64,000 nt of DNA from Bacteroides sp. (GTDB lineage: Bacteria > Bacteroidota > Bacteroidia > Bacteroidales > Bacteroidaceae). The stretch is from contig SUXY01000004.1 in NCBI GenBank assembly GCA_015060705.1, forward strand, positions 1 to 64,000, in the 5' to 3' direction. Below are positions 26,536 through 30,010 of this stretch, in pieces. The notes below the pieces were generated by a model. The model made no database searches. It was not told the DNA's origin and saw only the letters and a program-made list of their open reading frames with translations. Position 1 is the stretch's first letter, and each line of letters starts with the position of its first letter. Made by a program: the position numbers and the translations under genes.

Positions 26536-26552
26536 TCCCCGAAATATAAACC

Positions 26553-26598
26553 AAAAACTCGATGAAATGGGCAAAAATCGTCCTTTCATCGAGTTTTT
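26553..26598 (+). terminator. Terminator of the division cluster
   Basis: A perfect 15-bp stem AAAAACTCGATGAAA (26553-26567) with TTTCATCGAGTTTTT (26584-26598) and a 16-base loop, 17 bases after the yqeY stop. The A/T ends make it usable in both directions. Confidence 0.85.
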
Positions 26599-26602
26599 AT
26601 AT

Positions 26603-26776
26603 GAGTTCAAGGCATCTCTAAAAACCTTAAAAACCCATCGAATTTAATTTGCTTCAAAATATCTGTCACTCCTGCAACACTCTTTGATTCTCAGCGTCTT
26701 ATGGGTGGCAAGAGCCTATTTCTCCTTACACCCTCCTGTCACCGAAGCATTGTCCTTCCTCATCCTACGGAATGTA
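26603..26776. other. Gene-free stretch after the division cluster
   Basis: No credible open frame, RNA or promoter is seen. It contains two loosely related CTGTCAC-type words (near 26663 and 26734) in a pyrimidine-rich context and leads into the nested inverted repeats that follow. It looks like decayed accessory DNA. Confidence 0.4.
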
Positions 26777-26869
26777 GTTCCAACTTTTTCCACCTATTGG
26801 AACTTTTTGTCCCATTAAGTGGAACTTTTTGTTCCAGCTAATGGGAAAAATGGTTCCAGCTAATGGAAC
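26777..26869. repeat. Nested cluster of short inverted repeats (GTTCC/GGAAC)
   Basis: Four interleaved palindromes in 93 bases: GTTCCAA/TTGGAAC (26777-26783, 26797-26803), CCCATTA/TAATGGG (26811-26817, 26839-26845), GGAAC-TTTTT-GTTCC (26821-26835) and GTTCCA/TGGAAC (26853-26869). The word GGAACTTTTTG occurs twice and TTCCAGCTAATGG twice. It ends at the ATG of the BlaI-like remnant. Confidence 0.8.
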
Positions 26870-27048
26870 TGGCTCACACTAGCAGTCAACCTTTACTACA
26901 AAAGACACTATCGGAGTTCTTACAACAATACTACAACGGCTCCTTCTCCCGAATGGTGTGCGACTACATCCACGCCACGGGGATGAAGGAGGAAGAAGTG
27001 GAAGCTTTGTTGGAGGCGATGAGGGATATGACAAAATGTAACGAATGA
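26863..27048 (+). pseudogene. C-terminal remnant of a BlaI/MecI-family repressor (61 codons)
   Basis: The 61-residue frame (LQKTLSEFLQQYYNGSFSRMV followed by GMKEEEVEALLEAM) resembles the C-terminal dimerisation segment of BlaI/MecI-type repressors, in which a NGSFSRMV-like motif precedes a closing helix. The winged-helix DNA-binding domain is absent: upstream there is an in-frame TAA at 26839 and then repeats. No BlaR1-type partner is nearby. I regard it as a leftover, though a free-standing small protein cannot be excluded. Its last 39 bases recur in diverged form at 29235-29273. Confidence 0.45.
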
Positions 27049-27079
27049 TTGTTTTTCTGCACAAAATATCGTAAGTTTG
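27048..27079 (+). promoter_or_regulatory. Promoter of the AAA/PD-(D/E)XK gene
   Basis: ATTG (27048-27051), a 20-base spacer and TAAGTTTG (27072-27079) match the Bacteroidetes -33/-7 pattern. Transcription would begin after about 27085, which excludes the upstream ATG at 27077 and supports the start at 27104. Confidence 0.65.
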
Positions 27080-27103
27080 CAGATAAATCCAAAGCAGCCG
27101 ATT

Positions 27104-28846
27104 ATGAATACATACCGCAAACGAATTCCATATGGAATGATGAATTTCGTAGATGTCCGTAGGGATAATTGTTATTATATAGATAAAACCCGTTTTATCC
27201 CCGTGATAGAGCAGGCGAACAAATTCTTTTTCTATATTCGTCCGCGTAGGTTTGGCAAGAGCTTGACACTCTCGATGCTGAAACATTATTACGATGTGTT
27301 GGCAAAGGATATGTTTGACGAACTATATGGCGACTTGTATATCGGTCAGCATCCTACACCCGAGCGGAATAGCTATTTGATACTTTATTTGAATTTCTCG
27401 GTCGTTGATGCTAGCCTGAATAATTATCGGGATTCTTTGGATGCACATTGCAACACGGCATTTTGCCGTTTCTGTGATGTGTATGCAGATTATTTACCCC
27501 TAGGCTTGAAGGAGAAAATGAATGAGAAGGACGGGGCGGTTAAACAATTGGATTTCTTGTACCAAAGAGTAGCAGATGCCGGTCAGAAGATTTATCTTTT
27601 CATTGATGAATACGACCATTTCACCAACAAGATTCTTTCCGAGCCGGGTTGTCTGGATGACTATATGAAAGAAACGCACAGCACGGGTTATCTGCGTACA
27701 TTTTTTGACACCATCAAGGGAGGCACCGATTCTTCCATCAAGCGTTGTTTCGTGACGGGTGTCAGTCCTGTGACGATGGATGACCTGACCAGCGGTTTCA
27801 ATATCGGCACGAACTACTCCACTTCTCCGGAGTTCAACGAACTGACGGGTTTCTCGGAAAAGGATGTTAGGGAAATGCTGGACTATTACCGCACTACTTG
27901 TGAGTTTCATCATTCTACCGATGAATTGATTGAACGGATGAAGCCTTGGTATGACAACTATTGCTTTGCCATGCAGAGTTACGGCAAGACCACGATGTAC
28001 AACTCGAACATGGTGCTCTACTTTGTGGATAATTACATCCGAAATGGAGGAGAGTTGCCTGATAGAATGATAGAAGACAACATCCGTGTGGATTACAACA
28101 AGCTGCGTATGCTCATCCGCAAGGACAAGGAGTTTGCTCACGATGCTTCGGTCATCCAGACGTTGGTTTCGCAAGGTTATGTGACGGGTGAGCTAAAGAC
28201 CGGTTTCCCTGCCGAAAGGATAGCCGACCCGGACAATTTCATCAGCTTGCTTTATTACTTTGGAATGACAACGATTGATGGAGTGCATCGTGGCAAGACA
28301 CGTTTCAAGATTCCGAATCAGGTGGTGCGTGAACAGTTGTTCAATTATCTGTTGGAAACATACGATGAGGTGGACTTGCGTTTTGACAGTATGGAAAAGG
28401 GGGATTTGAATGCAGATTTGGCATACGATGGCAAGTGGCGTGAATATTTCCAGTACATTGCCGATTGTTTGACTACATATGCTTCCCAGCGAGACCGCCT
28501 GAAGGGCGAATCCTTCGTTCATGGTTTCACTTTGGCAATGACGGCTCAGAACAAGTTCTATCGTCCTGAGTCGGAAAAAGATACGCAGGGTGGTTATGCC
28601 GACATCTTCATGCTTCCGATGATTGACATCTGGAAGGACATGCTCCATAGCTACATCATCGAGCTGAAATATGCCAAGAGTAAGGACAGTGACGAGGTGG
28701 TGGCCCGTCTTCGTGAAGAAGCTATAGCCCAGGCCAATCGCTATGCCGATACGGAAGTGGTGAAGCGCAATATCGGCATGACCACACTTCACAAAATTGT
28801 GGTGGTGTATCGGGGTATGGATATGGTGGTGTGCGAAGAGGTTTAG
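27104..28846 (+). CDS. AAA-ATPase-like / PD-(D/E)XK nuclease superfamily protein
   Basis: A 580-residue protein of the large Bacteroidetes family that joins an AAA-ATPase-like domain (PF09820 type) to a C-terminal PD-(D/E)XK-like domain (PF08011 type). The N-terminus has IPYGMMNFVDVRRDNCYYIDKT and a P-loop-like RPRRFGKSLTLSML (about residue 45); YLFIDEYDHF fits a Walker B. The C-terminal part has GGYADIFML and, near 517, IIELKYAK, matching D...ExK nuclease residues. The function is unknown; these genes occur in many copies per genome and spread like selfish or defence-related elements. No partner gene is visible here. It has its own promoter and lies between two related 39-base repeats, suggesting insertion. 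Confidence 0.88.
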   Translation: MNTYRKRIPYGMMNFVDVRRDNCYYIDKTRFIPVIEQANKFFFYIRPRRFGKSLTLSMLKHYYDVLAKDMFDELYGDLYIGQHPTPERNSYLILYLNFSVVDASLNNYRDSLDAHCNTAFCRFCDVYADYLPLGLKEKMNEKDGAVKQLDFLYQRVADAGQKIYLFIDEYDHFTNKILSEPGCLDDYMKETHSTGYLRTFFDTIKGGTDSSIKRCFVTGVSPVTMDDLTSGFNIGTNYSTSPEFNELTGFSEKDVREMLDYYRTTCEFHHSTDELIERMKPWYDNYCFAMQSYGKTTMYNSNMVLYFVDNYIRNGGELPDRMIEDNIRVDYNKLRMLIRKDKEFAHDASVIQTLVSQGYVTGELKTGFPAERIADPDNFISLLYYFGMTTIDGVHRGKTRFKIPNQVVREQLFNYLLETYDEVDLRFDSMEKGDLNADLAYDGKWREYFQYIADCLTTYASQRDRLKGESFVHGFTLAMTAQNKFYRPESEKDTQGGYADIFMLPMIDIWKDMLHSYIIELKYAKSKDSDEVVARLREEAIAQANRYADTEVVKRNIGMTTLHKIVVVYRGMDMVVCEEV

Positions 28847-28934
28847 CTTTTTCTTAGAAATCTCCCTGGTGGAAGGACTGTAAGCACTTCCCCTAATTCC
28901 TTGGGGATTGGCAGAATATAGGATATTGAATTTT

Positions 28935-29009
28935 ATGAAGAAACTAGTTTAGATTATTGATTTATATGGCATTGGTTTCCTGTTCGGAACAGATGACAAT
29001 GAAGGCCTG
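28935..29009 (+). pseudogene. Broken lipoprotein signal-peptide fragment
   Basis: ATG AAG AAA CTA GTT TAG (28935) starts like a lipoprotein signal peptide (MKKLV) but stops at once. Shortly after, in another frame, comes MALVSCSEQMTMKA and a stop (28965-29009), which reads like the lipobox end of such a peptide. This looks like a decayed gene start. Bases 28847-28934 hold nothing recognisable. Confidence 0.3.
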
Positions 29010-29019
29010 AACTAACCCA

Positions 29020-29247
29020 ATGAGAATCTTCACGTTCATAGCTGTTGTTTGTTGTATATTAGGCATGTCCAATTGTACATCCATGAATTCTTCCGACAAT
29101 AGGAAGATGGAGGATTGTTTGTTTTTGGCCGATTCTTTCCGGAAGGTAGGAGTAAAGGATTCAGCCTTGTTTTATTTCAAGCAAGCGGAAAGTCTGTTGG
29201 CAGATACGGCTTCCGTTTCATCCCGTTATCATATCTGGAAGCGATGA
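29020..29247 (+). pseudogene. Truncated lipoprotein (75 codons)
   Basis: The frame begins with a good lipoprotein signal (MRIFTFIAVVCCILGMSNC, Cys19) and continues with a helical DSALFYFKQAESLLADTASV stretch like the first TPR-type helices of Bacteroides signalling lipoproteins. It then stops where the diverged BlaI-remnant repeat begins (29235). I read it as an N-terminal fragment whose remainder was lost in the rearrangement. A functional 75-residue lipoprotein is the alternative. Confidence 0.45.
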
Positions 29248-29273
29248 AGAATATGACAAAACGCAACGAATGT
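29235..29273 (+). repeat. Diverged direct repeat of the BlaI-remnant end
   Basis: These 39 bases match 27010-27048 at 32 positions, and six of the seven differences are transitions. In the frame starting at 29235 it reads LEAMKNMTKRNE, against LEAMRDMTKCNE in the first copy. The two copies bracket the AAA/PD-(D/E)XK gene and the lipoprotein debris. Confidence 0.75.
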
Positions 29274-29281
29274 TCCGTCCA

Positions 29282-30010
29282 TCAGTCAAACAACTCCTTC
29301 AACACATCGAGAGATTTCAGCACCGGGAAGTCAGGTAAATGCAAACGGTAGTAATCGTTGATGACCGTCAAGCAACGGTTTCGCTCAGTGCGGCTCATGC
29401 CGAACAGGTGCATCGTCTCATAATTCATACGGAGCAACAAGCGGATACGGGCAGCCTCATCCGGTTTCAAGAATGTACCACTTTTGGGAAGCATGGGTGT
29501 AAAACAAGCATTGAGCATATCGAAATAGCAACCCGAGGTGTAATCATCCACATTGGGATACAATCCCAAAAAACGGGAAAGACGCATGAGGAATACCAGA
29601 TGAAAATTGGCAAAGCTACGTCCTTCACACTCATCAAGCCAACGGATAGAATGTTGCAAGTAGATAAAAAGTGGTTCATTCGGAGCCTCCTCCTTCAATG
29701 CCCGATAAAGGAACTCAGCCAAAAACATAGCAATGGATGATTTATAAGGATGATAAGGCAAAGACCGGAACGGATACAAAGACTTCGCTTCGCGAATCCG
29801 ATGAAGGTTACTCGTCGGACGTACATCAGCTTCAACCTCTACTAAAGCCAAAGGTTGGAACAGCACATTCTGTACCCCACTCTTTTTGGAGCGGGACACT
29901 TTGACCAGGAAAGAAGCCCGTCCCCCCTGCTCGGTATAGATATCCACGATGTTTGAAGTATCGTTGTACTTCAAGGTGTGAAGCACGATGCCTGATATTT
30001 TTTGGTACAT
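29282..30010 (-). CDS. recO: DNA repair protein RecO
   Basis: A 242-residue protein with the RecO N-terminal OB fold ([31 protein letters not shown]) and a helical C-terminal domain. RecO loads RecA onto SSB-coated single-stranded DNA with RecR in the RecFOR gap-repair pathway. The four-cysteine zinc site of some RecO proteins is not seen: only two cysteines occur near the relevant segment ([11 protein letters not shown]). Single gene on the minus strand between the accessory patch and the tRNA genes. Confidence 0.93.

Follow-up and report, generated by a model that had tools for sequence, protein, structure and literature searches.

An AAA/PD-(D/E)XK gene between two ends of a dispersed BlaI-like small gene family beside recO in a gut Bacteroides

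Described relatives of the gene and of its setting

AAA/PD-(D/E)XK genes are numerous in Bacteroidota. Proteins of the DUF1703 type carry the Walker A motif RPRRFGKS and the Walker B motif DEYD (PMC1913061), and the family has been described as multi-copy and horizontally moving, with expansion accompanied by recombination in Cardinium (PMC6387759). Restriction-modification genes have been described to insert with long target duplication (Nobusato et al. 2000, cited in PMC3031569). Here the analysis concerned a window of 64,000 nt (the whole stretch of DNA analysed) from the draft genome of a gut bacterium (G000; 2.95 Mb, 118 contigs, 88% complete), in which an AAA/PD-(D/E)XK gene lies between yqeY and recO. 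The nearest relatives of this genome are MAGs from ruminant guts, the closest being RGIG4143 from roe deer (G010, hereafter the sister genome; 54% complete), with a recO protein 96% identical to that of G000.

The AAA-ATPase_like plus PDDEXK_9 gene (DUF1703 type) occupies positions 27104-28846 on the forward strand and encodes 580 aa from its ATG. The protein matched PF09820 in its N-terminal part (E 2.9e-51; 174.6 bits, cut-off 26.1) and PF08011 in its C-terminal part (E 1.4e-15; 57.6 bits, cut-off 25.5) and has intact RPRRFGKS, IDEYDH and D..ELK motifs, so that the gene which a preliminary description of this DNA had placed between two repeated words is indeed there. Residues R45-S52, D167-D170, E519 and K521 were invariant across 22 sequences. 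In both domains and in its motifs, with the Walker A RPRRFGKS, the Walker B DEYD and the D...ExK residues all kept, the window protein resembles the DUF1703-type proteins (PF09820 plus PF08011; PMC1913061, PMC6387759). It shares 97% aa identity with the protein at G010:C194 and 89% aa identity with that at G073:C42, and the comparison with the sister genome gave 67 synonymous and 29 non-synonymous differences, a pattern of purifying selection on the gene after G000 and G010 diverged. A structure model (mean pLDDT 79) matched Cdc6/ORC and, more weakly, the NLRC4/Avs3 AAA+ folds (STAND), which is taken as a hint only. Judged by its domains, the protein is probably an ATP-driven nuclease with a STAND/ORC-like AAA+ module, and it possibly acts in defence. 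No family among the PADLOC 2.0.0 models matched it at E 0.1, and searches of plasmid and phage collections gave relatives up to ~70% identical, none of them near-identical.

The setting of the gene can be compared with these described systems in several respects. The recurrent BlaI-end/promoter junction reported below, which is common to two subfamilies (AAA1, represented in the window, and AAA2) that are ~23% identical, does not feature in the parts of the DUF1703 descriptions considered (PMC1913061, PMC6387759). As in the long-target-duplication insertions (PMC3031569), a single nuclease gene without a transposase has direct repeats of a neighbouring gene's end on both sides; however, the repeats here come from a dispersed gene family, are of unequal length in the window and the sister genome, and the right one does not adjoin the gene. 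There is also a likeness to defence hotspots and islands in variable intervals, in that AbiEii, Abi_2, KilA-N, DUF3990 and AAA/PD-(D/E)XK genes are found after BlaI ends, but the landing place here is a repeated small gene end, not a tRNA or a single fixed core-gene interval.

The 39-base word and the gene family to which it belongs

The 39 bases at 27010-27048 had been reported to recur at 29235-29273 with 32 identities, and this repeat is real: 32/39 positions are identical, as against a best match of 23/39 on the same strand and 22/39 on the opposite strand anywhere else in the window, while the best matches of 200 random 39-mers from the window were almost all 21-25. The word is the coding 3' end, LEAMRDMTKxNE-stop, shared by genes of ~55-60 aa that lack a helix-turn-helix (HTH) and form a dispersed family, here called BlaI-small. 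Both copies are thus coding sequence and no terminal repeat of a special kind. The left copy, on the forward strand at 26863-27048, had been described as a BlaI/MecI-like remnant. That term needs correcting, as the HTH-less frame, similar to the BlaI/MecI C-terminus, runs uninterrupted for 61 aa, although its first ~11 codons derive from an upstream dispersed repeat, which has replaced the native 5' end, with family homology starting from ~26895. This intergenic repeat (26542-26888, forward strand) consists of a terminator-like palindrome and a GGAACTTTTTGTTCCA-type core, and in a query-by-query search of G000 it was found again at C78 (93% over 347 bp), at C36 (86%) and in pieces at about ten other places. 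Immediately after the left copy, a promoter/leader block at 27049-27103 (forward strand; TTG...TAAGTTTG, Bacteroides -33/-7 type), common to AAA2 and AbiEii genes elsewhere, provides the AAA gene with a predicted promoter of its own that starts at the BlaI-small stop codon.

The right copy (29235-29273, forward strand) retains the last 13 codons only (LEAMKNMTKRNE), has lost its stop through a change of TGA to TGT, and is joined at 29234/29235 to the first part of a TPR/LuxR-type regulator gene. It shares 89% identity over 74 bp with the genome's own C49 copy, the similarity extending into the recO tail, and it is a second, truncated BlaI end attached to a broken regulator gene. The regulator remnant, of TPR/LuxR (GerE) type, spans 29018-29234 on the forward strand and is 87.6% identical to L214 1538-1754, where an intact relative in G031 encodes a 493-aa product with GerE. 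The broken lipoprotein starts mentioned in the preliminary description are likewise present, the segment at 28915-28996 (forward strand) matching lipoprotein starts at C16 (92% over 62-65 bp) and C72 (77%). To the right lies recO (29282-30010, reverse strand; RecO_N plus RecO_C).

A protein search gave good matches to BlaI-small at 13 places in G000, the window copy included, and a profile search gave 15 places, one of them a full-length BlaI, leaving ~14. In a search of 61 genomes of the genus, G010 had nine matches, G073 seven (one in a longer frame) and G031 one, and G071 carried a recO-adjacent fragment, whereas the matches in G002, G016 and G029 were frames of full-length BlaI size, not small copies. 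Within these 61 genomes the family is therefore lineage-limited, being almost confined to G000 and its close relatives. The alignment of intact copies showed a conserved core, YY(D/N)GSFSRMACDYIHATGMTxEEVEELLEAM, and many copies are truncated at the 5' end with the 3' end retained. The pooled pN/pS of the core was 0.33, a purifying pattern that marks a coding family; the window copy, with six non-synonymous and two synonymous changes relative to C173, suggests relaxed constraint on that copy. BlaI-small usually comes last, at the 3' end, in an operon of 6-bladed-propeller lipoproteins, and some of these operons include a signal peptidase. NVEALD peptides are a partner of such propeller lipoproteins.

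The relation to BlaI/MecI repressors is a partial one. The window copy aligned with positions 66-113 of the 115 in Penicillinase_R (PF03965) at 21.2 bits, below the cut-off of 22.6, leaving the N-terminal winged helix unmatched, so that it falls outside the Pfam family, and the best match of a BlaI-small profile was weak (E 0.09), to MecI 76-122 at the C-terminus. BlaI-small aligns weakly with the C-terminal dimerisation part of these repressors but is without the helix-turn-helix, is ~60 aa long and scores under the Pfam cut-off. A structure model gave a low-confidence three-helix arrangement (pLDDT 65) and no meaningful fold match in the PDB. Text searches returned nothing relevant on BlaI C-terminal domains in Bacteroides and no paper on NVEALD peptides, and no earlier description of the BlaI-small family was found. 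Full-length BlaI genes paired with BlaR1-like M56 genes sit elsewhere in G000, apart from BlaI-small. Such pairs head propeller-lipoprotein arrays at C60 and C96 (among L300 5196-7094, L150 3151-4699 and L302 1-2559), and C48 holds a probable BlaI plus M56 pair at the head of a propeller array, with a putative BlaI frame at 1-314; among the M56 proteins, one has a TonB C-terminal domain and another a CarboxypepD_reg-like domain.

The yqeY-recO interval in relatives

Among 54 relatives with both genes in view, the yqeY-recO interval ranged from 88 to 5,567 bp with varied, unrelated contents; a single arrangement common to all relatives, which would have spoken against an insertion, was not seen. 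The AAA gene is accessory in this variable interval, in keeping with the insertion that had been proposed: it is absent from L065, where the interval is empty (203-204 bp), from L063 and L064, which hold other genes (in L063 a lipoprotein gene), and from L067 (G071:C168). The last of these supplies the empty site with a single BlaI end that had been suggested as a check, a BlaI-small fragment running there directly into recO. In Bacteroides faecis (L084 6738-8477), an independent AAA/PD-(D/E)XK gene with 47% identity lies 15 bp away from the stop of recO and has the same orientation.

In the sister genome, C194 has the order regulator, lipoprotein, lipoprotein, BlaI end, promoter, AAA gene, GAATGATTC and recO. 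Alignment with blastn gave two blocks in the window, 26985-28861 (94.3% over ~1,878 bp, matching L248 3458-5334) and 29268-30010 (86.8%), with no counterpart for 28862-29267, only GAATGATTC separating the AAA gene from recO. The shared ~1,878-bp unit comprises the BlaI 3' end, the promoter, the AAA gene and 15 bp (28847-28861, forward strand, the right limit of the block), and since it stops 15 bp past the gene, the right copy of the word is not a required end. The idea of a cassette whose moving limits are the 39-base ends could therefore not be upheld, and a composite element with such ends was rejected, the right block being missing in the sister genome. At both AAA junctions of the sister genome, GAATGATT is found (7/8 on the left).

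The difference in identity between the two blocks raised the possibility of a recent transfer of the AAA block (94.3% against 86.8% for recO), which was rejected because gdhA, aspC and other genes shared by G000 and G010 are 92-96% identical; against this background the AAA block shows no measurable sign of being younger than the species split. The diverged part is recO with its flank, not the AAA block, recO itself (29282-30010) sharing only 87% identity with L248 5345-6073 in genomes 92-96% identical elsewhere. One lineage may have swapped recO along with the right flank, which would have linked the left half carrying the AAA gene to a haplotype with a BlaI-small/recO junction of its own at the end. 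In G000, C49 (L142 5404-5477) carries a BlaI-small end with ~27 bp of recO tail on a contig other than that of recO, which implies that such junctions have moved.

Recurrent junctions and the origin of the bracket

BlaI ends were found beside a range of other genes. In G000 itself, C36 has a BlaI end and promoter (96% over 74-82 bp) in front of an AbiEii pair. In the sister genome, an intact BlaI-small with a window-type promoter precedes an AAA2 start cut after 32 codons at C173, a BlaI end accompanies an AAA2 fragment at C56, and C122 and C124 carry two AAA2 genes, 78% identical to one another, whose identical leaders are cut off by the contig ends precisely at the BlaI stop, CGAATGATTG; the close genomes are all fragmented MAGs, with contig ends falling exactly on the BlaI-end repeats. 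BlaI fragments are fused to AAA2 remnants at C97 of G000 and C83 of G010, BlaI-small lies upstream of an AAA1 gene at G073:C42, and at G010:C24 an Abi_2 gene is placed between two BlaI-small copies in the same layout as in the window. Further genes after BlaI-small include KilA-N (C16), DUF3990 (C78) and DUF2442 (C49). Several counts in the analysis were made by hand; one gave a defence or toxin-antitoxin-type (TA-type) gene directly after 6 of 15 BlaI-small places compared with 1 of 24 other propeller genes (Fisher p = 0.008, a rough, hand-scored figure with categories set post hoc). The proposal that other AAA copies should show the same flanking word was borne out on one side only: the left word with its promoter recurs in close relatives, but apart from the two orthologous occurrences, no AAA gene had a BlaI word on its right among the flanks read. 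The word is lacking at most AAA copies of the genus, and it occurs at many places without an AAA gene. As BlaI words are missing from the flanks of the remaining AAA1 copies in the genus, the association is particular to the clade of G000, and because most of the genus's AAA copies are without BlaI-small, BlaI ends cannot be what carries the AAA family in general.

The reading preferred here, with a probability of about 60%, is that recombination at BlaI ends lets variable islands exchange single defence-like genes, the bracket being two repeat-family members that remain on the two sides of the gene, not paired transposon ends. It would thus result from the dispersal of BlaI-small ends in variable islands, where gain, replacement and loss of single accessory genes take place beside them. 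The yqeY-recO interval would be a variable spot with pieces of decayed propeller-lipoprotein operons, each closed by a BlaI-small gene whose coding core and 3' end may be similar enough to provide short homologous stretches. The AAA/PD-(D/E)XK gene would have entered in one block with its promoter and the BlaI 3' end, probably through recombination or exchange of single genes at such junctions, a process made likely by the same block carrying the AAA2 subfamily and the AbiEii pair elsewhere. The right copy would be the leftover of an earlier BlaI-small gene adjoining recO, as still present in G071, fused by deletion to the regulator remnant. Homologous recombination is the most likely agent of this presumed order of events; among the fragmented MAGs compared, no recombination event was caught in progress, and as the gene order of the sister genome differs from that of the window, at least two further rearrangements are needed. 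What moves with the AAA gene would then be the BlaI 3' end, the promoter and the gene, not the bracketed 2.26-kb span. A lineage with comparable flanks and empty sites gives a handle on what travels with AAA/PD-(D/E)XK genes, with BlaI-small marking spots of exchange for other defence-type genes.

A single transposition-like insertion of promoter and AAA gene after the BlaI-small stop at a BlaI/recO junction, with duplication of the 8 bp GAATGATT or, for the window, of a longer sequence as described for restriction-modification genes, would fit the junction of the pre-insertion form ...AACGAATGATTCGTCCATC... kept at C49 and, with one change, at the single-copy site G071:C168, as well as the position of the gene between GGATGATT and GAATGATT at G010:C194, the direct repeats being 8-9 bp in G010 and 39 bp in the window. 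It is nevertheless considered unlikely, as the left copies extend well beyond 8 bp, in the window ~390 bp of unrelated remnants lie between the gene and the right copy, and other AAA copies show no such duplication among the flanks read. Nor does the window unit have the features of a mobile element or transposon, the ORFs and domains of the yqeY-recO interval including no transposase or recombinase and the ends inspected by eye showing no terminal inverted repeats. Accessory islands might instead simply collect lipoprotein/BlaI-small operons and defence genes, leaving the bracket mechanistically meaningless, as the many unrelated genes in the interval and the unrelated AAA gene beside recO in B. 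faecis would allow; such a chance neighbourhood is improbable given a near-identical 65-80 bp block at the same junction in different gene families, which is hard to explain without exchange there.

Co-selection of BlaI-small and the downstream nuclease as a functional pair, for example of regulator and effector, is very unlikely to account for their adjacency at C31/C194, C173, C56, C97/C83 and G073:C42. Purifying selection on BlaI-small agrees with it, but the nuclease has its own predicted promoter after the BlaI stop, BlaI-small is merely a fragment at several of these loci and otherwise ends lipoprotein/signal-peptidase operons, and in the window it shows the excess of non-synonymous changes against C173 noted above. 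A tight one-to-one partnership was rejected, most copies of each gene being unpaired. A bolder and distinctly doubtful proposal combines two roles, with BlaI-small representing new HTH-less, dimerisation-only BlaI microproteins that would modulate BlaI/BlaR1-type control of propeller-lipoprotein operons, and with their conserved 3' ends doubling as a cassette-like docking site for swapping single defence genes under a shared promoter. The full-length BlaI plus M56 pairs at the head of propeller arrays at C60, C96 and probably C48 would fit the first of these roles.

Two minor observations concern the surroundings of AAA2 and other accessory genes. After the truncated AAA2 start at G010:C173 (L218, about 1577-1700) and after the AAA2 end at G010:C124 (L231 2060-2140) there is a REP-like repeat (CAGGAGTGNNACGANGGTTGCACCACTCCTGCCACC). 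In G031, a further relative, the promoter block GTTCTGANAAAAATATCGTAAGTTTGC likewise stands before unrelated accessory genes (a regulator, a lipoprotein and AAA2; L214, L219 and L223).
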